IMG/VR virus record: IMGVR_UViG_3300033388_000706
Location: 1-23,102 of that record
DNA length: 23,102 nt
Strand: one strand, 5' to 3'
Source: a virus
The translations under genes and the position numbers were made by a program. The notes under the pieces are model-generated. The model was not told where the DNA came from and did not search any database. It worked only from the letters and a program-made list of their open reading frames with translations. Shown here piece after piece: positions 1-23,102 of this stretch. Position 1 is the first letter of the stretch. Every line of letters starts with the position of its first letter.

Positions 1-3000
1 TCCCAAGCATCTCTTATTGTATTTCTTGAAGCTTGCTCTAACCCTTTTACCTTCATCCTAATGTCAGCATACTCTTCATATCCTAACAGTTCCTTTCCAC
101 TTAAGTTTTCTAATACATCTTGTTGGTAAAACGATTCTTCTAACAAAGATTCGTATTGTTCTTTTGTTAGTCTTTCACCTTTAATGTCAACTTTTGGTGC
201 TTGTTTTAAAACTAATCCCCATCTATCTTTAATTGTTTTTAAAGCCGCACCTTTAATACCAGCTGTTCCAAAAACTTCATCTACTAAAGAGTTCACATTC
301 ACTTTATCAATAGCTAAATCTCTAGACGCTTTGTCTATAAATTCAACTATACTATTACCGTATATTTGTAACGCATCATACTTTTTAATTAACTTTAATT
401 TTTCAGTTATAGCTCCTAAATTTTCCTTACCAGGCTTGCTAACTATTCGTTCAACAACAGGTATATAACCAGGATTTTCTTGAATCTGTCTAATTATATC
501 GTTTGAGAAACTAACAGTTGGATCAACACCGATTTTATCTGCTATTTTATTAATAGCATTTTCACCCTCAATTAATATTTTTTCTGCTTCAGTTAGTCTT
601 TTGCTTTCAACAAGAGCTGTAGATAAAGCATCTTTAGCTATCTTCTCTGCTAACAATGTACCTAAAGCTAGTCTACCTTCATTTGGTCTACTTACTTCAT
701 TAATAAGATAGTCTGCTATTTCTTTTGGCGTAGGATTTTTCTGTTTATATTTAGCTCGTTGAGAAGCTAAATCAGTTATACCCTCTTGTGCTGGAGCTTT
801 TTTAGCTTCAGCAAAAGTATACTTACCAACCTCTTCATAAAATATATCCCATTTTCTAGCTCTTAACAACGCAGGATTTTCTTTATTTATTTTAAGAAGT
901 TCTTTAGCTGCTTTGTTTTCTAAGAAATCTCTGTATTCACTTTTCTTACCAGCTTTAGGTATATTTTTTAATATATCTTTTTTAAGTTTTTCTTGTACTA
1001 CTTGAACAAATCGTTTACCACCTCTTTCTCCTTTTCTCTTTCTTTGAAAAAAAGTATAATCACCTTTTTTAATATTTGGTAGTTGCTCTTTTACGATGTC
1101 AGCTACAACGTCCATTATTTCGGCTTGCTTTTCACCACTTAAGTTTACAACTTTTTTAGCTGTAGATGTAAGACGATCTTTTTTAGCGGCAGCATCTATT
1201 TTACCTTCAATACCACTTTCAGCTCCTCTTTCTTTTACAGCTCCAGCTTCTCCAGCAGCAACGTCTAGAGATTTGGTAAATTCTGTTTTCTTAAATTCTT
1301 TTATGATATCACCTCTTCTGAACCTGATTAAAGGATTCAAATAACCTATTAAACTATTGTTCTTCTCTGGATTAAACTTAATAAGTTCATTAGTTATTCT
1401 GTCTCTCATTTCACTATTAAACTCTTCCCAAGACTTACCAAATACATTATCACCAGCTAAATCTCCCTTGAACAGAGCATCTAATTTACCTTTATTTAAA
1501 GCTTCATAAGCTTTCTTAATACCAGTTTTATCCCACTGCTCTTTAGTCATTTTGTAGTTACCATCTACATCTCTACCACCTTCAACTAGTTCATTTACAA
1601 TTTCATTTTGATCTGCTAACCTATTACCTTTATCTTTACCAAATTTCTTTACTAATTTACTTCTTTCTTTTGTGTTGAAATCTTCTGTTGCTTTGTTTTC
1701 AGCTTGAATTACTTCTTGTTTTTCAGCATTGATTTCTTTTAACTCATTAAGTAATTGCGCTTTCTTTTCGCCCTCAGCAGCTTTCCATTCTTTAGTTTTA
1801 GCAATAGCTTTATCTTGGATCTTTCTTACTTGATCAGACATTATGTCTTTAGAAGCAGCCATCTCAACTTTCTCTGCTGCTTTCGCTTCCTTAGGCACAA
1901 ATTCCAATTTACCTTCAGTGTAACTACCGATAAAATTATATACATCTTTACCGTTTTTGAATTTAGCTTTTTTAAATGGAGTATGTCTATTTATTAAATT
2001 ACTAATGCTGTTTCCAATGTTTAAATAAGAAGCATTCTTCTTCGGTGACCAATTAATAGAACCATCTCCAATAGCATCATTCAAAGCATTGAAAAATTCT
2101 TTCTCTACGTTTTGAGCTTGTTGATCCATTTTCATTTGAACCGCTACAAGTTCATCATAGGTTAATTGTTTTTTAAAGTCTTTTACCAATCTACTTAATA
2201 TAGCTGGATCTCTAAAATAAGGATCTAATAAAGCATGTAATACCTCATGTGTTCCAATTGTGATCTTATTAACTTCTCTAGCTCTTTGAAGATCTATAAA
2301 TATTCTACCATCTCCATCAAGAAAAAATCCAGTAGCTCCTTCAGCTTTCACACCAGCTTCTTTTGCAGCTGCCTGAAATTGCTCTGTAGTTTCGAAAGTT
2401 TGATATTTGTCTTGAACGATCTTCTTAGCTTTATCTAAAGAAATACCATCTCTCTTGCTAATGTACTCAGCATAAATATCTTTAGAGGCTTCGATGTCTT
2501 CTAATCTTCTTGTCTCGTTGTATGCTAAGTTTTCTACTTCTAACTCTGGTAGTCTTTCTTTTATTTCAGTTAAACGTCTTTCAGCTTGACTAAGTGTAAG
2601 CGCTTTAGTAAACTGCTCGCCGTTCTTTTTTATATCAGAAATAGTTTCTTCAAGATTAGTAGCTTCTTGTTGTAATTCAAAAAGTTCTTTACGATGTTCT
2701 GTTCCTCTTTTGAATCCAGCGTTGTCTGCGTCAATAGACATTGCTTGGTATTTCTGTTTAATAGCCTTAGAAAAGGAATTTGCTTCTGCAGCTGTTAAAT
2801 TAGTATTCTCGATAAGAGCTTGCTCTATCATAGTCTCAGGAACTTTGTCAATAAAGTTTATTTGCTCTTCAGAAAACTCTATTTTAGCTTGAGGATTATT
2901 GTTTAGTTGATCAGCGTATTGAAGTACTAATTCTTTAGATTTTTCTTGATATTGATTAAAAGTATTTTTACCATCCTGCTGAAGTTCTATTAACTTTTGA

Positions 3001-5849
3001 GTGGCTCTAACCTGTAGATCAGAATTTAATTTCTTAAAATCATTTCTAATAGCATCCATTTCTATAGCAGCTTGAGTCTCTATAAGCTCACCACCTGTGA
3101 CAGGATCAAAATCATCAGGATATTTTTCTTGTACCTCCTTATAAGCTTTTTCCTCTGCAACTCTCAAGTCATTCTCAGTTGCATTTTTATTTTTAATTTT
3201 ATATTTTTTAGCTATATTTACAACTTCAGTACTTCCGCTATAACCACGTATTTCATTCATTAAGTTTCTACCGAACTCTCTATACATCGGAGGAACGTTA
3301 ATAGCATGATTAAAATAACCGGTTAACATCATTTGAGTAAACAATACACTAGCTTTTTCTAAGTCTGTTATCTCTCCAAAAGTTTCAGCATCTAAATTCC
3401 CTTGAACAACAGCTGCGTCAAATAGTTCTACAGCTAAAGCTACAGCTGTTCCACCACCAGCTTGAACACCCTGTCTTACTCCTCCTTTTAAAATTAAACT
3501 AGGAAGTTGTTTCATGCTTATTAAACCTTTAGCATCACCCTTCATTATAGGTGCTAAAAGCTTAGAGTTCATTAAATACTTCATTTGTGGATTCATGAAA
3601 CCAAAACCAGCCATAATACTCAAAGGCATTCCATGACCGCCTATAGATTTGTCAATACTATTGTATATTGATCCAGCGCCTATCTCAGTCCCAACAGCGG
3701 CTAACGTTTCTATTCCCCAAGATAAAGCTTTTGATTCGGCTATAATAATATCTTTAGCAGCTAGTTGAGCCATTGGAGAGCCTTCTAAAGCAAGACCTTC
3801 TTTTACAAAAGCTCTACCAAGCATTGTTCTTTGACCGCCAAACAGCCATTTCATAGCGCCAGCAGTTGGTCGTTTAGTTAATGCCATAACAGCTATCATT
3901 AAAGCAAAATCAGTCATACCACCAGAAACCATATCTACCCATCTATCTTCAGCTCTTTCTTTTAATTCATCTGGTATATTATAACCTAAATCAGTCATCA
4001 CGCCTTCCCAGTTTTTTACTTCTTTGTTTGCTGTAACGACATTTCTTTCACCATAAATCTTGCTTAAGAAAGCTGCCCCAGCAGTGTCAAACCAACCGGT
4101 TTCTTCCATTGTAGCTGGATCGTAGTTATATTCAATAGCTTTTGTTAATGTTAAAAACTTCGCTAACTTGTTGTTATACAGTTCAGTAAATTCGTCTTTA
4201 TCTGGTAGAAAAGAAAGTCTATAAGGTAATCTTTCACCTGGTTTACCATACTCAGACATTCTAATTAAATCTTCTTCAAAAGTAAAATCTTCATCTACCC
4301 CATCTTTTCCAAACCATGTTCTATATTCTCTTTCTCCAGTTTCAAATAATAAATCACCTAAATCAAATCCACTTATTCTTCTATATACACCACCTTGAGT
4401 ATAAGCTCTATTAAGGGCGTGAATTTCATATAGTATTTTATTTCTTTGTTCTTTTAGCTGCTCTATATCTGTCTTGCCTTCTTTAGCGTCTTCTAGTATC
4501 TGTTGGTTTTCAGGATTGTTTTTATAATTTTGATTTAAAAAAGCTTCAGTCTCCTCATTGTATAATTTATCACCAACACCAGCATCACCACCTTTTCCAA
4601 TAATAGCCTCCCATTTTAGATCATACATTAGCTTAGCGCTTTTTGTTTCAAAGTCATCAGGCCCTTTTGTTTTTAATAAATCTAAATATTTGTTTTTAGC
4701 AATAGTCAACTGGTCAAACTCTTGAGATACATACATGGATGTAACTTTTTCAGCATTTAAATTACCTGTTATCTCTGTTGCTAGTTTTATTTTTTCATTA
4801 TCAGTAGCTGTGTTTAAGTCTATATCGTAAAACGTTTTAAAATACGCAGCATTTTTCGGATTTCTCATGTCCGTTAACACAGATTCTATATCTTCTTTCC
4901 TCCAAACATCAGCTTCATGATTTATCCATTCCTGTCTAGTTTCATTTATTGTGTCTTCGTCCTTTACATAACCGTTTTTAATAACCTGTCCACCGATTCC
5001 AGTTTCAGTATTGTAACCAGAATATACTTTATAAGGGTCGTTTTTATCTTCGTCACCACTCTCCCAATACCAACTCCAAACATTAAAGTTATAATGCTTA
5101 TCAGATCCATCATTAAATTGCTCTAATTCTTCCTTATCAATAAAACCTTTTGAATAAGCGCTAGCGGTTTCCTCTTGAACATTAAAAGTCTCTTGTAATC
5201 TTTCTAATTCCCCTTCCTTTTTTTCATTAACAAACTCAGTCCAACTAGGATCTTGAGGTGAACTATCATAAACAGAACTCGCCCAATCGTTAATATTTTG
5301 CGGATCAGATTTTGGATTAATTTTATCACCAACCTGTAATTGACCATTCTCATCAACCCAAGCATTTTGAATTTGACTATCTTCTAAGCGATTGACTTGC
5401 TCAATAATAAAAAAATTATTTTTCTGCTTACCTTGTGATATTAGATTTTCTCTTTCCTGTTGAAGATTAGAAGCTATTTTGTTGTTGTAATATTCATTCC
5501 ATTCGCTGTCTATCTGCATTTGTTTTGAGTTGCCTGTCATTGGGTCAACGGACAAACCTTGTTGCATTCTTTCAACATTCGATTTTGCTCTAGCTTTTTC
5601 AGCAATATTAAGACTTTCAGCGTCAGCTTGCGCTTGTTGCTTTAATCTAGTTTCAACTGGAACACTAGCAATCTTTTCTTCATCAACTCCAACTCTTCCT
5701 TGAAAATCATAAATAGCAGCTCTTTTTCCTTCTTTCTCCATTTCATCAAATGAAGATTCTATGGCTCCTGAGTTTCTCGCTAAAAACGATTCAACTTGAT
5801 CCTGACGTACGTCGTAATATTTACCATCTGAAGTTTTATAAATTGGCAT
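1..5849 (-). CDS. Giant virion protein (probable ejected internal protein) with zinc-metallopeptidase motif, C-terminus off the left edge
   Basis: Reading the minus strand from the ATG at 5847-5849, I find no in-frame stop down to base 1, so at least 1,949 residues are coded and the stop lies outside the window. Residues about 1-600 are hydrophilic, rich in E, K and N. Residues about 640-850 form a glycine/alanine-rich hydrophobic block with several membrane-like stretches (near 643-660, 705-735 and 790-815). Residues about 900-1150 look like long coiled coil. Residues 1201-1205 read HEVLH, preceded by a DGDGRIFIDL strand and followed by ALLDP, the arrangement expected of a gluzincin-type metallopeptidase helix. 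The rest is lysine-rich and helical, with a distinctive LIGYLNPLIRF segment at 1500-1510. Its place as the last gene of a T7 gp13-16-like run suggests a protein packed in the capsid and ejected with DNA. The start follows the upstream stop by 16 bases and has no Shine-Dalgarno sequence. It could instead be a polyvalent phage protein of another kind; substrate unknown. Confidence 0.9.
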   Translation of the reverse strand, partial: MPIYKTSDGKYYDVRQDQVESFLARNSGAIESSFDEMEKEGKRAAIYDFQGRVGVDEEKIASVPVETRLKQQAQADAESLNIAEKARAKSNVERMQQGLSVDPMTGNSKQMQIDSEWNEYYNNKIASNLQQERENLISQGKQKNNFFIIEQVNRLEDSQIQNAWVDENGQLQVGDKINPKSDPQNINDWASSVYDSSPQDPSWTEFVNEKKEGELERLQETFNVQEETASAYSKGFIDKEELEQFNDGSDKHYNFNVWSWYWESGDEDKNDPYKVYSGYNTETGIGGQVIKNGYVKDEDTINETRQEWINHEADVWRKEDIESVLTDMRNPKNAAYFKTFYDIDLNTATDNEKIKLATEITGNLNAEKVTSMYVSQEFDQLTIAKNKYLDLLKTKGPDDFETKSAKLMYDLKWEAIIGKGGDAGVGDKLYNEETEAFLNQNYKNNPENQQILEDAKEGKTDIEQLKEQRNKILYEIHALNRAYTQGGVYRRISGFDLGDLLFETGEREYRTWFGKDGVDEDFTFEEDLIRMSEYGKPGERLPYRLSFLPDKDEFTELYNNKLAKFLTLTKAIEYNYDPATMEETGWFDTAGAAFLSKIYGERNVVTANKEVKNWEGVMTDLGYNIPDELKERAEDRWVDMVSGGMTDFALMIAVMALTKRPTAGAMKWLFGGQRTMLGRAFVKEGLALEGSPMAQLAAKDIIIAESKALSWGIETLAAVGTEIGAGSIYNSIDKSIGGHGMPLSIMAGFGFMNPQMKYLMNSKLLAPIMKGDAKGLISMKQLPSLILKGGVRQGVQAGGGTAVALAVELFDAAVVQGNLDAETFGEITDLEKASVLFTQMMLTGYFNHAINVPPMYREFGRNLMNEIRGYSGSTEVVNIAKKYKIKNKNATENDLRVAEEKAYKEVQEKYPDDFDPVTGGELIETQAAIEMDAIRNDFKKLNSDLQVRATQKLIELQQDGKNTFNQYQEKSKELVLQYADQLNNNPQAKIEFSEEQINFIDKVPETMIEQALIENTNLTAAEANSFSKAIKQKYQAMSIDADNAGFKRGTEHRKELFELQQEATNLEETISDIKKNGEQFTKALTLSQAERRLTEIKERLPELEVENLAYNETRRLEDIEASKDIYAEYISKRDGISLDKAKKIVQDKYQTFETTEQFQAAAKEAGVKAEGATGFFLDGDGRIFIDLQRAREVNKITIGTHEVLHALLDPYFRDPAILSRLVKDFKKQLTYDELVAVQMKMDQQAQNVEKEFFNALNDAIGDGSINWSPKKNASYLNIGNSISNLINRHTPFKKAKFKNGKDVYNFIGSYTEGKLEFVPKEAKAAEKVEMAASKDIMSDQVRKIQDKAIAKTKEWKAAEGEKKAQLLNELKEINAEKQEVIQAENKATEDFNTKERSKLVKKFGKDKGNRLADQNEIVNELVEGGRDVDGNYKMTKEQWDKTGIKKAYEALNKGKLDALFKGDLAGDNVFGKSWEEFNSEMRDRITNELIKFNPEKNNSLIGYLNPLIRFRRGDIIKEFKKTEFTKSLDVAAGEAGAVKERGAESGIEGKIDAAAKKDRLTSTAKKVVNLSGEKQAEIMDVVADIVKEQLPNIKKGDYTFFQRKRKGERGGKRFVQVVQEKLKKDILKNIPKAGKKSEYRDFLENKAAKELLKINKENPALLRARKWDIFYEEVGKYTFAEAKKAPAQEGITDLASQRAKYKQKNPTPKEIADYLINEVSRPNEGRLALGTLLAEKIAKDALSTALVESKRLTEAEKILIEGENAINKIADKIGVDPTVSFSNDIIRQIQENPGYIPVVERIVSKPGKENLGAITEKLKLIKKYDALQIYGNSIVEFIDKASRDLAIDKVNVNSLVDEVFGTAGIKGAALKTIKDRWGLVLKQAPKVDIKGERLTKEQYESLLEESFYQQDVLENLSGKELLGYEEYADIRMKVKGLEQASRNTIRDAW

Positions 5850-5865
5850 ATTTAATTATGTTTTA

Positions 5866-7530
5866 TTAATTGTCAAGAAAATCTCTTATTAACTGATTCT
5901 TGTTTAGCTTTATTATTTCACCAAGATTATCTTCGTGATCTTTTATCTTAACAATGCTAGAAACTTTATTTATGTCATTTAACTCATCAACTCTTGCTTG
6001 TATAGTATCTACCTCGCCTTGAATTTCTGGATTTCCTCCACTATCCTCAAGCTCTTTTTGTTTTTCAGCAAGCCTTGATTTTTCTTTTGCAAGCGCTTCT
6101 TCAGCTGTGTTAATTGTGTAACCTTTTCCTCTTGCGTCTAGTTCATCATTTATTTGTTGTATTTTATCGGGATCATAATTTATTGTACCATCATCAGCAA
6201 TAATATAATTTACAGCAGCTTGCATTTCTTTATTAGACGCTTTAATATTCTTTACTAAAGGTGAATCAGCTTTTGCAATATGAGTGCTTTTAACTTGATC
6301 TATTTCGAATGGACTTAGCATACCGTTTTTAAAATCAGTAATATATGTTTTTAGCAATTTCTCAAAAAACTCCCCTTGCTTTATAGCTGCTTTATTTTTT
6401 CCTGGCTTACCACCTGGGATCTTAGCTGCGTCTGTGTTATAAATATAGTCTTCAGTTAGATCTACAGAGTTTCCACTACCATCATCAAATGTATATTCAC
6501 TGGGATCGAATTGGTGAGCATATTTATCAACAAGAACACCAAATATATTTTTAGCATCTTTATCTATCATTATAGAACTGTGGAATAAATCAGTGCTTTC
6601 GTCCATAGCTTTAATAAAATCAGCGTTTCTCCCCTCAAAGTGTAGATACGTTGTAGTTCTTTTTCCGTTAGCTTTAGTTAGTGTTTCATTGTCATAACTT
6701 ACGAGATCTTTTAACACGTCCACAGTAGGTTTTAGTTTAGCTGTAACATCTGGAATTGTTTGAACTAACTGGTTCGCGTTTTCACCAGCTACACTTTCAA
6801 GGAAAAATTCTCTAGCGTTTAACTTAATGTAGTTATACTGAACTCCTTCCTGTTCTTCATCTATATCAACAAATTCACCTTTTTTATTCGTCATAGGAAA
6901 TTCGAATACTAACGTTCCCGCCTCTTCATCATAATACTGTTCAATTTCTTTACCACCATTTTTAGCGTTAAAATACAATGATAGCAATCTTTGATCTTGC
7001 TGATTTAAATCTACATAACCTTTTTCTAAATAAGGTTGACTGAAAGCGTCATCCATTGTTTGAAGAAAAGAGTTGAATGAACCAGTTATTTCTTGATATT
7101 GTTTAGGTACTCTCATCAATTCATTTAACTTATTTCTAGCCGCAACAGCATCGTGCACTTCTTCATATTTAATCTCACCTTTTTTCTTCCCGTGCTTATA
7201 TCTTTTTACCGCTCCTTTTCTATTTGTTTTCTCCTGTTTAACATAATACTCACCTCTATTTAATTTATTAGCTGTTTCGTAGTATTCTCTACCAATACGA
7301 ATTAGCTCTGCTTGCTTATCATCTTCAAATTTCTGAAAATCAAATTCACCGATATCAAACAATTTGTCAGCAAATTGATCGTATAACCTAGTGTTTGCGT
7401 CTAAAATAGCTTGATTATCCGCTCTTCTTTGAATCGCTCTTTCCATTATTAGGTTCAAATTCTGACTAATAGTTTGATTAATAGTACTTTGTGGACGTTG
7501 TATTATTCCAGGATTTTCGTAAGTTCCCAT
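5866..7530 (-). CDS. Internal virion / ejection protein candidate, hydrophilic coiled coil (T7 gp15 position)
   Basis: A 554-residue protein with no recognisable enzymatic motif. It is soluble in character, rich in K, E, D and N, with no signal peptide or membrane segment. The N-terminal 100 residues are predicted helical (repeated charged heptad-like stretches around RAIQRRADNQAILDANTRL), and residues about 470-530 form a clear coiled coil (KSRLAEKQKELED and following). The middle (about 190-350) is more mixed and may hold a folded domain. It lies between the gp14-like small protein and the giant protein, with gaps of only 17 and 16 bases, so it is almost certainly in the same transcript and assembly. 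T7 gp15, a tube-forming ejected protein, sits in the same relative place but is longer (747 aa). The role is inferred from position only; the coding call is secure. Confidence 0.85.
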   Translation of the reverse strand: MGTYENPGIIQRPQSTINQTISQNLNLIMERAIQRRADNQAILDANTRLYDQFADKLFDIGEFDFQKFEDDKQAELIRIGREYYETANKLNRGEYYVKQEKTNRKGAVKRYKHGKKKGEIKYEEVHDAVAARNKLNELMRVPKQYQEITGSFNSFLQTMDDAFSQPYLEKGYVDLNQQDQRLLSLYFNAKNGGKEIEQYYDEEAGTLVFEFPMTNKKGEFVDIDEEQEGVQYNYIKLNAREFFLESVAGENANQLVQTIPDVTAKLKPTVDVLKDLVSYDNETLTKANGKRTTTYLHFEGRNADFIKAMDESTDLFHSSIMIDKDAKNIFGVLVDKYAHQFDPSEYTFDDGSGNSVDLTEDYIYNTDAAKIPGGKPGKNKAAIKQGEFFEKLLKTYITDFKNGMLSPFEIDQVKSTHIAKADSPLVKNIKASNKEMQAAVNYIIADDGTINYDPDKIQQINDELDARGKGYTINTAEEALAKEKSRLAEKQKELEDSGGNPEIQGEVDTIQARVDELNDINKVSSIVKIKDHEDNLGEIIKLNKNQLIRDFLDN

Positions 7531-7547
7531 ATTTACTTATATATTAA

Positions 7548-8156
7548 TTAACCAATACCAGATGTCGCAACAGAAGTTACTGTATTAACCATTGTGTTTA
7601 TAGAATCTTGGGTATTTTGACGTCTTTGCATTTCTTCAGCTAGATCGGCATTCATTAAACCTTGCTCTCTATTTAATTTTTGCAATTCCCTATCTTCTTG
7701 TTTCTCCCATTTCCATTCTTCTCCAGCCGCTTTAAGTTTACCAACTTCCATCGCTCCTTGTGCTCTTAATCTTTCGTTAGCAGCTTCTTGTTGTTCTATA
7801 CTAGCAGATATACCAGCTTTACTTTTTAAAGCAGCTTGAGCTAAAGCTGTAGCACCACCTGCACCTGCGCCTGTTGCCATTAAGGTATCTAATGTATTAG
7901 CTAAAGCTACATCAGCCTCTTCCGCTTGAAATTCAGCAGCTTGAGTAGCAACCCCAATATTAGCATACTCATTTTTAATATTTTCATAAGGATTTATAAA
8001 TTCCTGTCTTAAGCCTTCTAATCGTGTAATTTCTCTTTCGTGAGACTTCGCTTCATCTTTTGCGTCATTTGCTTTTTTATTCTGTATCGCGGCGTTTGTT
8101 GCAGATACAGCGGCTCCCACCGCGCCTGCTATTATTATCCCTGTTGCTACTCCCAT
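7548..8156 (-). CDS. Small internal virion protein with N-terminal hydrophobic helix (T7 gp14-like)
   Basis: A 202-residue protein. Residues about 4-22 (GVATGIIIAGAVGAAVSAT) form a hydrophobic, small-residue-rich helix able to insert in a membrane. The rest is alanine-, glutamine- and glutamate-rich: a helix at 28-60, a glycine/alanine patch near residues 90-112, and a long charged coiled coil at about 118-185. This matches the character and length of T7 gp14 (196 aa), the ejected protein thought to form the outer-membrane pore. The start codon is one base after the TGA of the upstream GNAT-like gene, giving tight coupling. Nothing in the sequence shows ejection directly; that part is inferred from composition, size and gene order. 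An alternative is a minor structural protein of the tail hub. Confidence 0.82.
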   Translation of the reverse strand: MGVATGIIIAGAVGAAVSATNAAIQNKKANDAKDEAKSHEREITRLEGLRQEFINPYENIKNEYANIGVATQAAEFQAEEADVALANTLDTLMATGAGAGGATALAQAALKSKAGISASIEQQEAANERLRAQGAMEVGKLKAAGEEWKWEKQEDRELQKLNREQGLMNADLAEEMQRRQNTQDSINTMVNTVTSVATSGIG

Positions 8157-8157
8157 A

Positions 8158-8565
8158 TCATATAAGTTTTATCATTTCATGTGACGACTTTTCGTCAACA
8201 TGCCAATCTAAGTTTTTGTGTGTGTTTATAAGACCTTTATTTCTTCCAATACTAAAGACATATTTATAATTCATACTCTTACACACGTTTTCTACTCCAG
8301 TTATTAACAACTCTACTGCGTTATTTCTATCACTCTCTCTGTAGTCAGGGTCAGATACAATCCACTCTAATAAAGCTCCTTTAGAGTTTGTTAAATATAA
8401 AAATCCAGCAACAATAGGTTTGTCGTTTTTTTCTACAATAAAACCACCTTTACCATTGTCTGGAAAAAAATCTTTAGGCATAACTGTCCATTCTGGCCAT
8501 TTTTCCCACCAAGAAACTAAAGTTTCCCAGTCACTATCTTTAAGTCTTCTTATATTAAATTCCAT
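8158..8565 (-). CDS. GNAT-fold acetyltransferase-like protein, probably non-catalytic (T7 gp13-like position)
   Basis: A 135-residue protein with the layout of a GNAT domain: an N-terminal strand-helix (residues 1-25), a central sheet around VEKNDKPIVAGFLYLTNS (44-61), a strand LLEWIVSDPDYR (65-76), then the helix that normally follows the acetyl-CoA pyrophosphate loop. In active GNATs that loop reads roughly R/Q-x-x-G-x-G/A; here it is R-E-S-D-R-N, without either glycine, so cofactor binding is doubtful. The C-terminal part (NKGLINTHKNLDWHVDEKS) fits the last GNAT strands. T7 gp13 (138 aa) is a similarly sized GNAT-like virion-assembly protein located just before gp14, which matches this arrangement. 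I favour an assembly or structural role; a functional acetyltransferase with a divergent loop is the alternative. The stop is TGA, one base from the next ATG. Confidence 0.75.
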   Translation of the reverse strand: MEFNIRRLKDSDWETLVSWWEKWPEWTVMPKDFFPDNGKGGFIVEKNDKPIVAGFLYLTNSKGALLEWIVSDPDYRESDRNNAVELLITGVENVCKSMNYKYVFSIGRNKGLINTHKNLDWHVDEKSSHEMIKLI

Positions 8566-8574
8566 TTTATTATA

Positions 8575-10359
8575 TTAATATGATGATATTACATAATTCG
8601 ACGCGACAGCAAATAACTCTTTAGCTCCACCTGAATCTGTTGTTTCATCTGTTCTAAGTGTAATAGTCAAATAATAACCTTTTACGCCACTCATCATTTC
8701 ACCAAAAACCACTTCACCAATTCTACGTTGACTATTGTTTATCATGTTCGCTACATATCTGTTTTCTTTTCTATCAAACCCAGATCTATAAATCACACCA
8801 TTATCAGTATATTTACCTTCATCATAACTCCTAATACGCTGAGCTGTATCATTATAAGATATGTATGTGCTACTTAAATCATCAAATTCTTGTGGGCTAG
8901 ATATACCACTGTAACTTAAAGCTTCATCCAGAGCTTCCCAACCATTACTACCTTCATAACTAACAGTGTTAAAGTTTTTAGTTATTGATGGGTTTGGGTT
9001 AAATACTAGAGTTATACTAGAATAATCTTGATCAGCATTATACGTATTATAAAAGTTGTTTCTATCAACTGTTTGATCATTGTGTTTCCAAAGCTTACCA
9101 TTATAAAAACTATAAAAATCTCCCCTTAAACTCTCCATGAACTGAGGTTTGTAAGTGTAGAAGCTAACCCAACCTCTAGATCCTTCGTCATAAACCAAGG
9201 TGTCATAAGTATTTCTATCTTGACTTATATTTGGAGGGTTGTTTTGTATTGATAGAGTGTATTGATCATTATAGTTATCGTAAGCACCTAGTATTCTATC
9301 TTTTTGATATATTACTATGTATATATCATCACTGTCTCTGTTGGATAAAGCGTTGTAAGATCCAACTGATATAGAGTTATTTAATTCAATAGCTGGGAAT
9401 CCACCAAAATTAGCGACAAACATGGCGACTTCTGCCGGACTCTCAACTCCACTACTGTCAACTGTATTTAATATTTGAAACTCACCATTCACATAAAAAC
9501 CTAAAGTAGCACCTGGTATAAGATCACATTCTTCAAGCTCAACAAAAGGAATTGGGTTTGAAAGTGGTCTAGGAAGACTCCAACCTGGTGCTATTTCATA
9601 AGGTATTAATATTCTTCTATAACCATCTAATATCTCTTGGAATTGATCTCTAAAATAATCCCTCATTCCATATTCAGATATTTCAGTTATACCATCCCTA
9701 GATAATCTAAGGACTTTGTTTCTATATCTATCAGTATAATACTTTCTAAATCCAAACACAGCGAAACTTTCTGGATTTTTACTTATACCATACTCTCCTA
9801 AATACGGAACAGTCTGCCCTATTACTTGACTTCCAGAAGTACTCATTGGTTTACCATCAGCAGCATAAACAGCGTCTTTGTCAATTAAAGATTTACTTGT
9901 TTTGTTCTCTTGAAATATAGTTAAATCTGTATTTTCAGCGTATAACTTTTGTATAGAACCTTGTAGTGGATCTAAACTTCTAGTTATTTCTTCACCTGAT
10001 GGGAATTGATTAGTATTGTTAACACCTGTTCTAGAGTTATATATACCAGAATAAATTAATGAAGCATCTCTATTATCAGCTGATGTATCTTCCTCTTTCA
10101 AATATGCTCTTACTCCAAAGTCTACGCTAGTATTGTTAAATCCACCTCTTATTCTAGCTTCTTCTAAATAAAAGAAATAAGGTCTACCAGTTTCTGTTTG
10201 AGAATCTAACCAATCACCACCATTAAAAGGATAACTTGGATAGAAAGTTGGATTCCATGGTAAACCAGGCCAATCAGCTTCTTCAGCCAATTGAGTGGCT
10301 GAAGTAACCTTCTTTAACCAAAAAGAATTATAGTATTTTATTTTTAAAGAAAATGCCAT
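8575..10359 (-). CDS. Tail stabilisation / tail-hub-type structural protein
   Basis: A 594-residue protein rich in aromatic residues, N, S and G, mostly beta-strand in character, with no signal peptide. Residues about 133-169 (a segment ending LTIFQENKTSKSLIDKDAVYAADG) and about 190-240 (GISKNPESFA, then RKYYTDRYRNKVLRLSRDGI, then EISEYGM) look like the conserved core I associate with stabilisation proteins of crAss-like and marine podoviruses, where a beta-propeller caps the short tail. That recognition is from memory of the family, not a search. It starts nine bases after the stop of the 989-aa propeller-type gene and is presumably its structural partner; together they would form the nozzle of the tail. 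Receptor binding cannot be excluded. Coding status is very clear. Confidence 0.8.
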   Translation of the reverse strand: MAFSLKIKYYNSFWLKKVTSATQLAEEADWPGLPWNPTFYPSYPFNGGDWLDSQTETGRPYFFYLEEARIRGGFNNTSVDFGVRAYLKEEDTSADNRDASLIYSGIYNSRTGVNNTNQFPSGEEITRSLDPLQGSIQKLYAENTDLTIFQENKTSKSLIDKDAVYAADGKPMSTSGSQVIGQTVPYLGEYGISKNPESFAVFGFRKYYTDRYRNKVLRLSRDGITEISEYGMRDYFRDQFQEILDGYRRILIPYEIAPGWSLPRPLSNPIPFVELEECDLIPGATLGFYVNGEFQILNTVDSSGVESPAEVAMFVANFGGFPAIELNNSISVGSYNALSNRDSDDIYIVIYQKDRILGAYDNYNDQYTLSIQNNPPNISQDRNTYDTLVYDEGSRGWVSFYTYKPQFMESLRGDFYSFYNGKLWKHNDQTVDRNNFYNTYNADQDYSSITLVFNPNPSITKNFNTVSYEGSNGWEALDEALSYSGISSPQEFDDLSSTYISYNDTAQRIRSYDEGKYTDNGVIYRSGFDRKENRYVANMINNSQRRIGEVVFGEMMSGVKGYYLTITLRTDETTDSGGAKELFAVASNYVISSY

Positions 10360-10368
10360 CGTATTGTT

Positions 10369-13338
10369 TTATGAAGTAGGTAATTGACTTGTGATTATAT
10401 AAGGACCAACAGTTATAGAACTTCTAACAAGTGTTGCTGTTTCTATTGCTTCAATAAGAAAATAATACTCGTTTTTAGCGGGATCAGAATTAAGCGTTAT
10501 ATTATCAATTTGTTCTAATCTCCATTTTTCTAGAGTACACAAGCTCAAATCGTTAGTTAAACTAAACTTATTATTTATAATAGCTCCAGTTCCATCAGTC
10601 ACTTGCAATAGTGTTAGTGATCCTGGAGATGCAGTTTGAACAGATGTGAAACCTATTGGCGTTGCGGTATAAGGTGGTCCAACAAAATTAAATGGGGCGA
10701 TACCAGTTTCACCAATGTCGTTAGGTACTATTATATCATAAGGTAAAGAGGTTGGCGTGCCAATTCCTTCTGCAAACTCAATGATAGGCCATTCACTTAT
10801 ATTACAATTAAGCCCAGCATTATCTGGTTCTCTTGCTAGCACAACCATAGCTTCGGTGAGATTAGTTCTAATATCTTGATTTAACTCTGTAATTACACCC
10901 GCTTGAGTAGATTCCCAGTATATATCTATTTGAGATTCGAACGGTTCTGTTTCGTATACCGATAAATTCGGTAGCATATTACCAGCACCACCTGTTCCTG
11001 TTGCGCCTATATTTATATCTTCAAATATTATCTTAGCAACTAGTGGATTCGTGTCGCCGTCTAATGCCCAACTACCATCTAAATTAAGGTCATTCTGCTT
11101 AGCTATAGTTACAACTTCATCAAAAATTGTTTGATTGTTTTTAGTGGAAAGTGAATTTGTGTTATATGGATAGAATTGCTTAACTTTTCTATATCCCTCA
11201 CCTGCAAAGTTAGTGACTACGGCGCTAGCTGCACCTACGGTATAATTAACGCTTGTGGTTCTACCGTAAAGCTTAACACTAGAATTTTCTAAAGTATTTC
11301 TTTGAGCATTTTCAATAGCTAATTCTATTTCTTCATTTCTTCTATCAATTCTCGCTTGAGCTCTAGCTAGCGCTCTTTCAGCAGGAGTTCTTGTTGAGAT
11401 TTCATCAGCAAAAAGACTTGCTGCAAACTCTTCTTGAGATGGTCTAATTTTTTTCTTAGCAGATCTAAACAGCGTTTGTTCAGGACCAACTTCTAATAAA
11501 TCTCTTGGTATTTTATTTATATTATCTCCATGTATAACTAAATGACCTGTTGGATTAGAAGTAGTAGCTTCAGCAGCTACTCCACCAACGACATATCCGT
11601 TTAATATACCAGCTGCGTATACATTGTAGTACTCTTGCTCCTTTTGCTGAACAACTATTTTGTAACTAAACCATCCTAATGGATTGAATTCACTGTATAT
11701 ACCTGGGTAATTAGGGTCACTAGTTACTTCTGGAATTTCTTCAAAAAAGCTCATTTCTAAAATATCACCAACCCAATTTACTATATCTCCAGGATTAAAG
11801 AAACCAGGTGAACTTTCATATCCACCGCTAAAACTAGGAAAACTATCATTGTTAGATCCCTCTTTGTATGGATGAAATATTGTAGAAAAACCATCTTGAG
11901 CAGATGTTATAACACCAGACTGTCTACCATATATATCAGATAATACTATACCTACATCATAAGTTCTATTTTGTTTTAATGTATGATTAGGATATTCTAT
12001 AGCGTCGTCATTATTTTTATCTGTTACACCAACTTGATAATTTAAAGATGAAGGATATGAGTGTTTATCAATAAAGTTTCCATAGATAACTCTATTCCCA
12101 CTAACAGCTTGAGCTACAGCTTTAACTGGAGCTACGTCTGAAACTCTAACGATTTGACTGTTTGGTAGAGTTTTTATTGGAGTAGTGCTATTATATTGGT
12201 AACTTAAATTACCATTACCATCAATTAAAGTTGTTGAAGGTTTTACTATATCTACAACATCTAAAACCTCTACTACTTTAACAGCTGGTGAATTAGATTC
12301 TTTATAAAGTATCTCAACTTGTTTAACTTTGAAATCTGTGTCTACATTTGCCCATCCGCTCAGATTAGTTGTATTTGTTATTGGCGGTATTTTTAAAGTT
12401 ATTTGAGTTACCTTGTTTTGCATGAACCTAACTTCAGTAGATCTAAAAGTATCTGATAGTGTATCTTTTTCTATTTCTATACTAGGACCATAGTTACCAT
12501 CACTTCTTCTTATAAAGTAACCATCATCTTGAGGTATAAAAGCTATTTGACTAAATGGAGCTATTAAAGAATATTCATTACTTTCATATTTTAATCTATA
12601 ACTAAATCTAACAAACTTGTCTTCTAAAAAGTCTTCGTCACCACTCCAATTAATATTTTTGTACGGATTACCAGTTGTATCATCTGGTAAGTATTCTCTT
12701 ACAGTATCTAACATAGTACCCTCGCCATTATATATAAAAGATATTGGTAAAAATGGCGCATATCTAGCAACTGAAATATGTTCTTCTGCAAAATAATAAC
12801 TATTGTCATTTATAGCTGTAGTAACATTTATTTTTCTAGGTTGATTCCTGTTATCTGTCCAAAACAATTGATCCTCTATTAGATCTATACCGTATATTTG
12901 ATGTGTTTTTGAGAAGTTTAAGAAAGCACCTTCTACTATTATAGATCCCGTATTGGTGTTAAAATCATAAACACATATACAACATTTAACAGGAACTAAA
13001 ACACCGCCAAGACTAGGAGAGTTATCATTTTCGTAACGTAAAGCACTTCTACTGAGTTGATCAGCAGAAGTATCAGTATAGTTAGTTATCATGACAAATA
13101 TTCTATTATTGTCGATGTCTGCTATTTTACCTATGACTTCTAAGTTACAATCGTCAGATAAACCAAAGTCAGTGACTTCGATGTTGCCTAAAACATTTTC
13201 TAATGATCCAACATCCTCACCTTCAGACTTACTTACATTAATATTCTGAGCATCTCTGTATTCTCCAGACGGTAGTATTCTAGCGTCTAAGTCTTTATTC
13301 ATTTTAGACTTAAGAAAGTTGTTCCTAACCTCTGCCAT
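10369..13338 (-). CDS. Large tail-tube/nozzle structural protein with propeller-like N-terminal region
   Basis: A 989-residue protein. The N-terminus (residues 7-52, with NNFLKSKMNKDLDARILPSG, then YRDAQNINVS, then EGEDVGSLENVLGN) is a hallmark I recognise from marine phage structural proteins related to tail tubular protein B/stabilisation proteins. Residues 159-171 (FWTDNRNQPRKIN) resemble a YWTD-type propeller blade strand. A charged coiled coil of about 60 residues interrupts the beta-rich protein at about 622-690 (RALARAQARIDRRNEE region). The C-terminal 250 residues are again beta-rich and contain glycine/proline/threonine loops that may be exposed. The ATG overlaps the stop of the upstream gene (TAATG), so translation is coupled. 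The likely site is the distal tail tube or nozzle. Exact position in the virion is inferred. Confidence 0.85.
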   Translation of the reverse strand: MAEVRNNFLKSKMNKDLDARILPSGEYRDAQNINVSKSEGEDVGSLENVLGNIEVTDFGLSDDCNLEVIGKIADIDNNRIFVMITNYTDTSADQLSRSALRYENDNSPSLGGVLVPVKCCICVYDFNTNTGSIIVEGAFLNFSKTHQIYGIDLIEDQLFWTDNRNQPRKINVTTAINDNSYYFAEEHISVARYAPFLPISFIYNGEGTMLDTVREYLPDDTTGNPYKNINWSGDEDFLEDKFVRFSYRLKYESNEYSLIAPFSQIAFIPQDDGYFIRRSDGNYGPSIEIEKDTLSDTFRSTEVRFMQNKVTQITLKIPPITNTTNLSGWANVDTDFKVKQVEILYKESNSPAVKVVEVLDVVDIVKPSTTLIDGNGNLSYQYNSTTPIKTLPNSQIVRVSDVAPVKAVAQAVSGNRVIYGNFIDKHSYPSSLNYQVGVTDKNNDDAIEYPNHTLKQNRTYDVGIVLSDIYGRQSGVITSAQDGFSTIFHPYKEGSNNDSFPSFSGGYESSPGFFNPGDIVNWVGDILEMSFFEEIPEVTSDPNYPGIYSEFNPLGWFSYKIVVQQKEQEYYNVYAAGILNGYVVGGVAAEATTSNPTGHLVIHGDNINKIPRDLLEVGPEQTLFRSAKKKIRPSQEEFAASLFADEISTRTPAERALARAQARIDRRNEEIELAIENAQRNTLENSSVKLYGRTTSVNYTVGAASAVVTNFAGEGYRKVKQFYPYNTNSLSTKNNQTIFDEVVTIAKQNDLNLDGSWALDGDTNPLVAKIIFEDINIGATGTGGAGNMLPNLSVYETEPFESQIDIYWESTQAGVITELNQDIRTNLTEAMVVLAREPDNAGLNCNISEWPIIEFAEGIGTPTSLPYDIIVPNDIGETGIAPFNFVGPPYTATPIGFTSVQTASPGSLTLLQVTDGTGAIINNKFSLTNDLSLCTLEKWRLEQIDNITLNSDPAKNEYYFLIEAIETATLVRSSITVGPYIITSQLPTS

Positions 13339-19135: not shown

Positions 19136-21544
19136 CTAAACACCAAAGCTGTCTAAATCCAACATAGGTTGATCGTCACTAAAATTCTTTGGTGGTAACT
19201 GTTTGTTTCTTTGTTCTATCAACTCGCTTTGTTGAGTTGCTTGTATTTTGGTTCTTTCGTCTTTTCTATTTTCTTTTTCTTTTTCAAAGTTGGCTTTAGC
19301 TTCATTCTCAACTCTAGCTAAATCCATTTTCAACTTATATTCCATTTGAAGGATACGCATTTTTATTTCAGCTTCTTGTTCCATTTTCTGGATATCAAAC
19401 TGAGATTTACCTTGCTCAATTTGTAAAGTAGTTTGAGCTATAGCCTCTTGTTTATGGACTTCATTCATAGCCGCTCTTTCTGCCTGCTCAGCATTAGCTT
19501 GAGCTTGAGCTTGAATATTAGCTTGTTGTGCTTGTTGATCTTGAGCAAGCTTTTGTGATCTCCTCTTTTTTAATACTTGATTTGCTAATTTTAAATTCTT
19601 TATTTCTCTTATATCTATAGCGTCTTCTAAGTATATTTGACCGCTCTGTAAAGCCACTTGTATATTTTGCTCTATTAATTGTCTTTCTTCTTCGTCTGGT
19701 TCTAATTCTAAAAATATTCCGAAATCATGAAGATTTAAACTCGAAAGCTCTTCTAATGTATGTACATTAAATCTAGATATACTTGATTGTATAGATTCTC
19801 TTAGTGTAGGAAAAGCTAAACAATCTGCTATTCTTAAAGCTATATTCTCGCAAGTTCTTAAATTTAAGTAAAGACTTCCTTGTAATACATGTTTAGTTGC
19901 AGTGTTAGAGTTAGCTGCTGCTAATTTTTGTAAACCAACAAGAGAGTCAGGATCTGGCATACTACCATCTCTAGCCTCATTTAAACCGGTAACATCTCTT
20001 ATTAATTGTAAATAGTATTGATACGTACTTATTAGCGACTGTATTTTACCACCACCATTTGAGGTTTGCATTTCTTGTATAGGAACTTTACCTGGATTCA
20101 TATCGCCATCCTGCGTCATAGATCTACCTATGATACTACCAGTTTGAAAATACATATTTAATGCCTCGGCTGGATTGTAGTTAGTACCGTTACCAAGATC
20201 AACTTCAGCTAAACCATCTGCATCAAGATAAACACCATCAGGTACCATTCTTGATAATACTTGTTGTAGTTTTAAATGAGTTATTTGGATCATATCCGCA
20301 AAACTCATCATTCTACTTACAAGAGATTCTATCCTGCCCTTATACATTCTTGGAGCACAGATATTATAATTCATTCTAACTTTAACAGTGTTAGCAAAGG
20401 GTCTAGTCATATTTTCAGCTAGCTTCCACTCTAGCATATCATCAAACCCTAATATCTTAGCTCCACTGTATAATACTTCTATTGCTCTATCTATTTTTTT
20501 AAACCCATCAGCTTCTGGTGGATTAAACGTATCTTGCTTTTCTAATGCTTTTTCTAAACCAAATGGAGTTTGTTTTATTTTCCACGTTTGGTTAGTATAT
20601 GTTTTGTATTCAAAAAATAATACCTGAACTGTATTTTGATCAGCTCTACCATTCCAGTTTCTAAGGTAATTATTATTACCTGGGTATTTCTGTATTCTCT
20701 CTATTTGCTCAGGCGTTAAATGAGGAAATCTTTTTACTAACTCTGGTATTGTTACCGACTTAACTTCCCCAACATAATACATATCTTCAAAGTTTGGATC
20801 TTCTGTATATGACCAAACTAAATTAGCTGGATCAACATACTCAACTTTTATCCCTTCAGACGTATTAAAACAAGTTTTAACAGCTGCAATACCCAATACA
20901 GTTAAATCGTAATTTAATCTTCTTTTTGTTAATTCAAATTTATTTCTATCAAGTATATCCGTAATAACTTCCTCTTCTGCTATCTCCACAGCTTGTTTAA
21001 AATTCAACTGCATGTGAACCGAAAGTTCATCTTCAGTTAGAGGTGTATCGTCTGATTCTGGAACTTCAGATATATCTATTCCAGCTTGAGCTTGGACTTC
21101 TTTTATATATTCTCTTTGTACTATATTCCTATGCAACATTTCCGCATAGTTAGTTCTTTTCTTAATAGAAACGGGATCTTGAGCATAAGCCTTTATGTCA
21201 TACATCCTATCTGACATTCCGTTAACAACTATATCTACAAATTTCGGTATTATTGGAACAGGTTTCCAATCTAAGTTTAAATAAGATAAGTCACCATTTA
21301 TTGATAGTTCGTCTTTATACTTTTGAACCGACTGCTCTCCTCTAGCATATAATCTTCTTTGATGGAAGTCGTTATAGTAAGTAGAAAACCTACTACCGTA
21401 CCTATTATATGATCCATTGTTATTATTGCCAAACCACTCATATTCTATAGCTTGTCCAACTAATTTACCATACTCTAATGTTTGTTTCTCTACATCTGGT
21501 ACTACCTGATCAGGAAATGAACTGTTTGAATTAGTATAAATCAT
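19136..21544 (-). CDS. Portal protein
   Basis: An 802-residue protein directly after the terminase gene: its ATG abuts the terminase TAA with no gap. The portal core is recognisable: a PVPIIPKFVDIVVNGMSDRM segment (about residues 96-115), a long helical insert at about 135-215, then TVLGIAAVKTCF and YVDPANLVWSYTEDP (about 215-250), a clip-region LTPEQIERIQKYP, and a stem-type region with VSRMMSFADMIQITHLKLQQ. The last 144 residues (659-802) are a long, glutamine/lysine/glutamate-rich coiled coil resembling the C-terminal barrel helices of P22-type portals. Length and layout fit portals of crAss-like and P22-like podoviruses. The stop is TAG, the only one among the genes in this window. Twelve copies would form the DNA channel and docking site for terminase and the neck proteins. 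Confidence 0.92.
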   Translation of the reverse strand: MIYTNSNSSFPDQVVPDVEKQTLEYGKLVGQAIEYEWFGNNNNGSYNRYGSRFSTYYNDFHQRRLYARGEQSVQKYKDELSINGDLSYLNLDWKPVPIIPKFVDIVVNGMSDRMYDIKAYAQDPVSIKKRTNYAEMLHRNIVQREYIKEVQAQAGIDISEVPESDDTPLTEDELSVHMQLNFKQAVEIAEEEVITDILDRNKFELTKRRLNYDLTVLGIAAVKTCFNTSEGIKVEYVDPANLVWSYTEDPNFEDMYYVGEVKSVTIPELVKRFPHLTPEQIERIQKYPGNNNYLRNWNGRADQNTVQVLFFEYKTYTNQTWKIKQTPFGLEKALEKQDTFNPPEADGFKKIDRAIEVLYSGAKILGFDDMLEWKLAENMTRPFANTVKVRMNYNICAPRMYKGRIESLVSRMMSFADMIQITHLKLQQVLSRMVPDGVYLDADGLAEVDLGNGTNYNPAEALNMYFQTGSIIGRSMTQDGDMNPGKVPIQEMQTSNGGGKIQSLISTYQYYLQLIRDVTGLNEARDGSMPDPDSLVGLQKLAAANSNTATKHVLQGSLYLNLRTCENIALRIADCLAFPTLRESIQSSISRFNVHTLEELSSLNLHDFGIFLELEPDEEERQLIEQNIQVALQSGQIYLEDAIDIREIKNLKLANQVLKKRRSQKLAQDQQAQQANIQAQAQANAEQAERAAMNEVHKQEAIAQTTLQIEQGKSQFDIQKMEQEAEIKMRILQMEYKLKMDLARVENEAKANFEKEKENRKDERTKIQATQQSELIEQRNKQLPPKNFSDDQPMLDLDSFGV

Positions 21545-23102
21545 TTATTCTATTATTTTTGATATATCGCCTTTATTGTCATACTTTTTAATACCTAAGT
21601 TTATGGTCTTAGTTGTTCTATCTGCCGTAGGTTTATACAGATTTCTATTACAAGCCATTATCGCCAAGCCAGAACTTATAGACGCATCATGCTTAGTTCT
21701 TTTAGTTATGTCAAACCTAGCCCAATCATCTAATGTCCTTTGAAAATACATTGATCCACAGATACCATCTATAAAGCCAACGTTATTTTCTATATAAGAT
21801 TCAATCGCAGCCGCGTGAGCTTGTTTAATATCTTCACTTGAATTAGGTATACCACCTATTTCTTTTTCGGTTACTGACAATTTATTCCAAACTTTATCTG
21901 GTCTATTCATTGCGTATTTTCTATAACCACGTCTTTTTAAATGATAAAGTAATCTTGGCTTGTTGTTTTCAACTAATATAGGCATTCCATAAAAAATACA
22001 AGCCATAAGTACATCTTCAAAAAATATTTCAGCAGTTTGCGGTCTTGCAATATACTCTAAAAAAAAGTGACTTGGAGGGGCGTCTTCCATGCTGAATTTA
22101 GTTAATCCATGTAAAGAACCGTTTGAACCTCTACCATCTACAGTGCCGCTTATGTCGTACGGGTCACAGCCAAAAGCTCCAACGTGTTCATTACCTGGAT
22201 ATTTGATTCCATTTTTAATGATCACTCGATTTTGTAAATTTTTAGGTGGAACCCATGATACTAAAAATCTTCCGTTATTGTTTGGTTGGAAAATAACTCT
22301 AGTGTCTTTTATACCATTCTCCCATTGAAAACTTCCTTTAGTTATATTAGCAGCATTATTTATGCCATCATTGTAGTCTATCTGTTCATATATTTTTACC
22401 AAATTAAACAGACTCTGCTTTGCTTCATCTCTAAAAGCGTGGTTTTCAGTTCTGGGAAATTGTCTATAAAATTCATTTAATCCTTCTTGATCATTCTTTA
22501 AACCTTCAGCTTCATTGTCCCAGTACTCTATCACCCCAATTTTTATAGGTATTTCATCTATACCCATTATAGGTTTTTCAGGTGTATCAAAAACTGGTAA
22601 ACCATGAACGTCTATATAACCTTCATAATTCCACTCCATTGGAATAAATAAAGAGTATAAACCAGACTTCGTTTGACCATTCCTGTTTCTGTTAGTAACG
22701 TCGGAATTATAGTATATATCTTTAAAGTTTTGACCACCTTTATCTAAAGCGTTAGATGTTGAACCCATCATACACTTACCTATAATTCTTCTACCTAATC
22801 TTAAACAAGTTTTAGTTACTTTCCAGTTATTCTTAATATTGTCAGGTCTCTCCCATTTACCACTTTCATCGTGAGCTAATAGTTTTAGTTTTTCACCATC
22901 GTAACTATTATCTCCAGTATTCTTCCAATCTATCGTAGTATCGAGTCCATCAAGTTCTTCAAGTTGCTCTCCAGTATCGAGTTTTCTTCTGGTGAGTTTC
23001 GAAGCTGGAACTCTGTATGCCAGTTCTGTTTTAGGGCGATCCATACCATCTTGTATGGGCTTGAAGAAAAACGGATAATTAACTGATATGGGTACGACCT
23101 TA
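21545..23102 (-). CDS. terL: Terminase large subunit, N-terminus off the right edge
   Basis: Packaging motor ATPase and nuclease. The frame stays open through base 23102: the 19 codons before the ATG at 23042-23044 contain no stop and read like terminase sequence (PFFFKPIQDG, then MDRPKTELAYRV), so that ATG is almost certainly an internal methionine and the Walker A motif is outside the window. Counting from this Met, a Walker B-type stretch KLLAHDE ends at D59-E60 and a coupling motif GSTSN spans 94-98. The C-terminal RNase H-like nuclease shows three acidic positions: D294 in AFGCDPYD, E359 in PILVENNK and D453 in TKHDASISSGLA. The sequence from D294 (DPYDISGTVDGRGSNGSLHG) is of a kind I associate with flavobacterial and marine phages. 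The stop directly joins the portal start. Confidence 0.95.
   Translation of the reverse strand, partial: KVVPISVNYPFFFKPIQDGMDRPKTELAYRVPASKLTRRKLDTGEQLEELDGLDTTIDWKNTGDNSYDGEKLKLLAHDESGKWERPDNIKNNWKVTKTCLRLGRRIIGKCMMGSTSNALDKGGQNFKDIYYNSDVTNRNRNGQTKSGLYSLFIPMEWNYEGYIDVHGLPVFDTPEKPIMGIDEIPIKIGVIEYWDNEAEGLKNDQEGLNEFYRQFPRTENHAFRDEAKQSLFNLVKIYEQIDYNDGINNAANITKGSFQWENGIKDTRVIFQPNNNGRFLVSWVPPKNLQNRVIIKNGIKYPGNEHVGAFGCDPYDISGTVDGRGSNGSLHGLTKFSMEDAPPSHFFLEYIARPQTAEIFFEDVLMACIFYGMPILVENNKPRLLYHLKRRGYRKYAMNRPDKVWNKLSVTEKEIGGIPNSSEDIKQAHAAAIESYIENNVGFIDGICGSMYFQRTLDDWARFDITKRTKHDASISSGLAIMACNRNLYKPTADRTTKTINLGIKKYDNKGDISKIIE

Follow-up and report, generated by a model that had tools for sequence, protein, structure and literature searches.

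A divergent zincin domain in the probable ejection giant of a crAss-like aquatic phage

The DNA analysed here (the window) is an entire virus record of 23,102 bases, IMGVR_UViG_3300033388_000706, and all of its genes lie on the minus strand. The giant open reading frame that runs off its end encodes a predicted zincin, which is a divergent member of a kind known from the polyvalent proteins of phages. With a probability of roughly 60%, we explain the gene product as a polyvalent ejection giant whose zincin most likely acts on the giant itself after delivery. The source is a crAss-like aquatic phage that most likely carries the giant in its particle and injects it into the host. The features of the window are listed in Table 1.

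Table 1. Positions of genes, domains and motifs in the window.
Feature	Positions	Strand	Evidence and remarks
Large terminase and portal	19136..23101 (portal 19136-21544; terminase 21545 to contig end)	-	phrog_6547 7e-143; phrog_6681 6e-112
Muzzle in two adjacent genes	8575..13338 (C part 8575-10359; N part 10369-13338)	-	Pfam crAss_MUZ 4e-12; crAss_MUZ_C 8e-10
135-aa protein, T7 gp13 slot	8158..8565	-	phrog_17252, no assigned function
202-aa protein, cysteine-free, T7 gp14 slot	7548..8156	-	50-64% identity to four homologues
554-aa protein, cysteine-free, T7 gp15 / N4 gp51 slot	5866..7530	-	Position, composition
N-terminal 1,949 codons of the giant protein	3..5849	-	ATG start at 5849-5847; 3' end past contig edge
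Two hydrophobic peaks, possible membrane-interacting stretch	3405..3932	-	Residues ~640-658 and ~797-815; Kyte-Doolittle peaks 1.57 and 1.53; weak
Putative zincin (MPTase-like) core, residues ~1138-1261	2067..2438	-	31-sequence alignment (A2), AlphaFold model, structure comparisons
HEVLH, residues 1201-1205; proposed two zinc ligands and general base	2235..2249	-	Invariant in 31/31 homologues
E1251, candidate third zinc ligand	2097..2099	-	Invariant in 31/31; near start of second C-terminal helix (model helix 124-136)
GKDVYNFI motif, residues 1300-1307; C-terminal edge of conserved unit	1929..1952	-	G, K, Y and F invariant in A2
Post-zincin region, residues 1345-1926	72..1817	-	Well conserved in L002 and L003; no family match

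The giant reading frame contains no internal stop over 1,949 codons and is still open at the contig end, as the earlier note on this DNA had reported. The other five frames of the same stretch contain 77-297 stops each, with a longest open run of 112 codons. Complete homologous giants were found at two viral loci, with lengths of 3,810 aa (L002) and 4,686 aa (L004), while a third (L003) is still open at 2,642 aa. Given these lengths, the true giant probably measures ~3,800-4,700 aa and the window carries roughly its N-terminal half; a search for a contig that overlaps the window edge and would extend the frame found none. As a whole protein, the giant matched nothing above cutoff in Pfam, PHROGs and NCBIfam. 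The region that follows the zincin includes residues 1480-1640, for which a sigma-like domain was considered and set aside as a guess without support.

Following the direction of transcription, the window encodes a muzzle, proteins of 135, 202 and 554 aa, and the giant. A comparable order is known from T7, with gp12, gp13 (138 aa), gp14 (196 aa), gp15 (747 aa) and gp16 (1,318 aa), and from N4, with gp53, gp52 (150 aa), gp51 (644 aa) and gp50 vRNAP (3,500 aa), of which gp50-52 are the ejection proteins (PMC12633501). In crAss001, muzzle gp44 is followed by cargo proteins gp45 and gp46 and then by gp47 (PMC10172136). The same size order recurs in six homologous loci (L002-L004, L014, L030 and L043). 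Since the 202-aa and 554-aa neighbours gave no match to T7 gp14 or gp15 among PDB sequences, the equivalence of the slots rests on order, size and composition; a model of the 554-aa protein was too poor for use (pLDDT 55.6). By this analogy, the giant is very probably ejected cargo in the gp16/vRNAP slot, in agreement with the gp16-type assignment of the earlier note, and we hold with still greater confidence that it is a polyvalent-type protein. At 50-64% identity among homologous loci, the 202-aa protein is far better conserved than its 554-aa neighbour (22-29%), and it may serve well as a marker gene for the group.

Upstream genes point to a phage whose tail carries a Crassvirales-type muzzle and whose relatives include Elemovirus and the Callevirus/Baltivirus flavophages. 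Both Pfam muzzle matches are above cutoff, and a match to phrog_14478 is split across the two muzzle genes. The nearest named relatives of the portal are MW202828, Elemovirus, Callevirus, Baltivirus and Gundelvirus, which are flavobacterial phages where the host is known, and relatives of the portal occur in at least 596 viral contigs. In the NCBI taxonomy, Elemovirus and Pervagoviridae have no order and are not placed in Crassvirales. Genes for virion RNA polymerase of the gp47/49/50 type were not found within the window, which is a fragment; where the smaller cargo genes end, the giant follows instead. We also observed that the muzzle is split into two genes in the window clade (also in L002, L003, L004 and L021), in contrast to the single gene in Elemovirus, MW202828 and crAss001.

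The ejection cassette is also set apart by its composition. The giant together with the 554-aa and 202-aa proteins contains no cysteine in 2,705 aa, compared to 25 in 4,886 aa for the other window genes (Fisher P 2e-5). Across 27 non-redundant homologous loci, cysteine frequencies per 1,000 aa were 0.15 in the giant, 0.21 in the first gene upstream, 0.30 in the second and 6.9 farther upstream. Among textbook phages, T7 gp14-16, N4 gp50-52, P22 gp7/20/16 and the internal virion proteins of SP6 and phiKMV contain a single cysteine in a total of ~12,770 aa. Other proteins checked, with roles in the virion, as terminase or in replication, mostly have several each. LIT1 gp71-73 (4,029 aa) and lambda gpH (853 aa) are likewise free of cysteine; epsilon15 gp14-17, with five in 2,574 aa, is a weaker case and a partial exception. 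The signature is not exclusive to ejected proteins, because some capsid and scaffold proteins, namely N4 gp56 and P22 gp8, are cysteine-free as well. For N4-like vRNAP, both the absence of cysteine and its rationale, that a protein passing the tail should form no disulfides, were already published (Kazmierczak et al., as cited in PMC3915230). A search of a literature collection found no paper that states this absence for a whole ejection cassette or as a general point; what is new here is the cysteine-free character of the whole three-gene cassette, which fits passage of its proteins through the tail.

The earlier note had pointed to HEVLH, with GDGRIFIDL before it and ALLDP after it, as a metallopeptidase motif. 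The motif and its context are present as described, and conservation argues strongly that the motif is meaningful. In an alignment of the four closest giants, H1201, E1202, H1205 and E1251 are unchanged, even in L003 with its strongly diverged N-terminal part. Viral contigs were scanned with patterns drawn from EFFNALND and GKDVYNFI, from which HExxH was excluded; all 35 loci recovered have HExxH at the expected place, in long reading frames, and so do the three further loci (L160-L162) of a second scan. The resulting 31-sequence alignment has a mean column identity of 25% and only eight invariant columns. Four of these are the G, K, Y and F of GKDVYNFI, whose invariance is partly selected since this motif was a search pattern; the other four are H, E, H and the later E, of which E1251 is partly selected in loci that match EFFNALND, whereas H, E and H are not. 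With nine histidines in the 1,949 residues, 0.004 occurrences of HExxH would be expected by chance. This value, together with the retention of the motif in every homologue of the domain, rules out that HEVLH arose by accident in a coiled structural protein rich in lysine, a reading that we regard as exceedingly improbable.

A structural model is consistent with this assignment. The AlphaFold model of residues 1126-1345, built from the 31-row alignment, is of moderate confidence (pLDDT 77.5, pTM 0.67) and by DSSP comprises an N-terminal helix, three strands, the HExxH helix and a later helix with E1251. In the MPTase core of polyvalent proteins, zinc is bound by two histidines and a glutamate from the second helix (Iyer et al. 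2017, PMC5512222), and the predicted fold corresponds to this core. Comparison with solved structures is suggestive: zincins (lethal factor, clostridial collagenases and YbeY) make up most of the best VIA-align rows, with Z scores of 3.3-3.8, i.e. below 4. A Foldseek search of PDB and BFVD gave no match reaching E 0.001; a MuF protein, a structural protein of Elemovirus and several polyvalent proteins appear on the BFVD list, all above that value. Nothing that the earlier note had named as speaking against a zincin, be it homologues without HExxH or a fold that buries the histidines or offers no third ligand, was encountered: every domain homologue examined keeps the motif, and the invariant E1251 is a candidate third ligand. 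From sequence and model together, we consider it likely that this is a real and active zinc-peptidase domain.

The window domain shares with polyvalent MPTases the HExxH in the first C-terminal helix, the glutamate in the second, the three strands, the N-terminal helix and a giant multi-domain phage protein as host. It differs in that no curated model recognises it, since the zincin models of Pfam, NCBIfam and PHROG gave no match to the window sequence, and in that a GKDVYNFI segment is linked to it. The named phage collection yielded no match in tblastn searches with the window giant and with two other members of the domain family. A weak scan of bacterial genomes with a single pattern yielded 83 matches, none of which was confirmed. 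By the sequence searches made, the clade lies outside the curated models tried and was found only in viral metagenome contigs.

Segments N-terminal to the zincin were recovered in the closest contigs only, whereas the zincin occurs in all of them, and we take it from these comparisons to be a module common to otherwise unrelated giants. Elemovirus, grown on Flavobacterium sp. BAL314, is the nearest cultured phage with a homologue. Its gp18, a protein of 3,694 aa from Flavobacterium phages, resembles the window giant in gene position, size and zero cysteine content, and it has HExxH at 1543 within a region that matched our zincin profile by hhalign over 129 columns (probability 88, local E 3e-6; reversed-sequence controls negative). 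However, only the zincin is detectably related, and gp18 also has a DUF3293 domain. Its record is labelled only 'structural protein', and we looked for a mass-spectrometry basis for this label and found none. Outside the zincin, no similarity between the giant and Elemovirus, MW202828 or phi19:3 could be detected, nor was homology of its N-terminal part to Elemovirus or phi19:3 detected. The HExxH domain is absent from phi19:3 and from the part of the Callevirus giant covered here, its C-terminal part. Profile comparisons with MW202828, N4 vRNAP, LIT1 vRNAP and crAss001 gp47 were not significant, though each of these has an HExxH. The MW202828 giant (L008) has two, at residues 1615 and 2500 in different contexts; its only annotation, 'reticulocyte binding/rhoptry protein', looks like a misannotation.

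Proteins in the equivalent slot of better-known phages resemble the giant to different degrees. N4 vRNAP is also the last and largest member of a three-gene cysteine-free ejection cassette and has an HExxH domain at 2228, but it carries an RNA polymerase. T7 gp16 occupies the same slot following gp12-gp15 and has zero cysteines, but it is much shorter and has a transglycosylase domain and no described zincin; it contains a string HERLH at residue 559, with nothing to indicate a zincin. The crAss001 proteins gp45-gp50 are encoded downstream of the muzzle gene and are cysteine-poor (7 in 7,478 aa), whereas gp47, gp49 and gp50 are RNA-polymerase-related and gp47 is without significant similarity to the window zincin. 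An HEAFH motif is present at residue 2157 of gp47, near its C terminus.

The earlier note expected a zincin in an ejection protein to be unusual, but no domain is commoner in the polyvalent proteins of phages than the zincin MPTase (PMC5512222), and N4 vRNAP carries one (PMC5512222; PMC12633501). For these domains, Iyer et al. discussed self-processing before packaging, self-processing after delivery and attack on host proteins (PMC5512222). Under our preferred explanation, the reading frame would be the N-terminal half of a polyvalent ejection protein of 3.8-4.7 kaa that is carried inside the head, passes through the tail in an at least partly unfolded state alongside two smaller ejection proteins and refolds inside the host. 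In the zincin (residues ~1138-1261), H1201, H1205 and E1251 would bind zinc and E1202 would act as general base. The enzyme would then most likely cut its own polypeptide, freeing downstream domains such as the kinase/phosphatase-like module of L002. We prefer post-delivery self-processing because the giant would otherwise keep several unrelated domains on one chain. The giant itself as the substrate after ejection is a tentative assignment at somewhat less than even odds; no cleavage site was identified in it. Automatic self-cleavage is made less probable by N4 vRNAP: this protein bears a domain of the same kind, yet it enters the particle without prior processing (PMC5512222), and its structure was solved on the recombinant full-length form (PMC12633501). 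It seems doubtful that the protein is an injected polyprotein in the full sense, a cysteine-free chain of ~3.8-4.7 kaa from which its own zincin cuts out effectors (e.g. a polynucleotide kinase/phosphatase), with cysteine exclusion as a general ejection signature.

Another enzymatic domain on the same chain was seen in the C-terminal half of the L002 giant, in the part beyond the window, with matches to AAA_33 (6e-14) and to the PHROG polynucleotide kinase (3e-9). Within residues 2266-2666 of that giant, this P-loop, polynucleotide-kinase-like domain lies between two stretches that adjoin in the L004 giant (residues 2812-3148). These flanking stretches carry a HAD-like FDFDDTLA motif, and the sequence comparison points to nested insertion of the kinase into, or its loss from, a phosphatase-like domain.

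The same protein and domain could also act during assembly, the zincin trimming the giant, or a neighbouring protein, inside the head or earlier, by analogy with P1 DdrB, whose C-terminal MPTase is inferred to act in this way and which is processed before packaging (PMC5512222). We judge this unlikely, as the MPTase of N4 vRNAP leaves that protein unprocessed at packaging (PMC5512222), and the domain of the window family lies mid-protein and not at a fixed end. We give equally little weight to an effector role, in which the zincin, once injected, would cut a host or envelope protein. Such a role is among the options raised for MPTases (PMC5512222), and a zincin common to giants with unrelated other parts is what would be expected of a mobile effector module; yet no target is indicated, and the retention of HExxH in every member across very different giants fits a giant-intrinsic function too. 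Much less probable again is a zincin fold kept for packaging or structure with no working protease. The region of N4 vRNAP that holds the MPTase is needed for encapsidation (PMC5512222), but, at ~25% mean identity, the complete conservation of both H, of the E between them and of a later Glu is hard to explain without metal chemistry.

These results correct the view of zincins in ejection proteins as an oddity and place a large, mostly uncultured group of aquatic phages within the polyvalent-protein framework. In the window family and in most of the textbook podoviruses checked, the cysteine boundary draws a sharp line between ejected proteins and most of the remaining virion proteins. Should a systematic survey bear this boundary out, it would help in predicting, from sequence alone, the phage proteins that enter the host.
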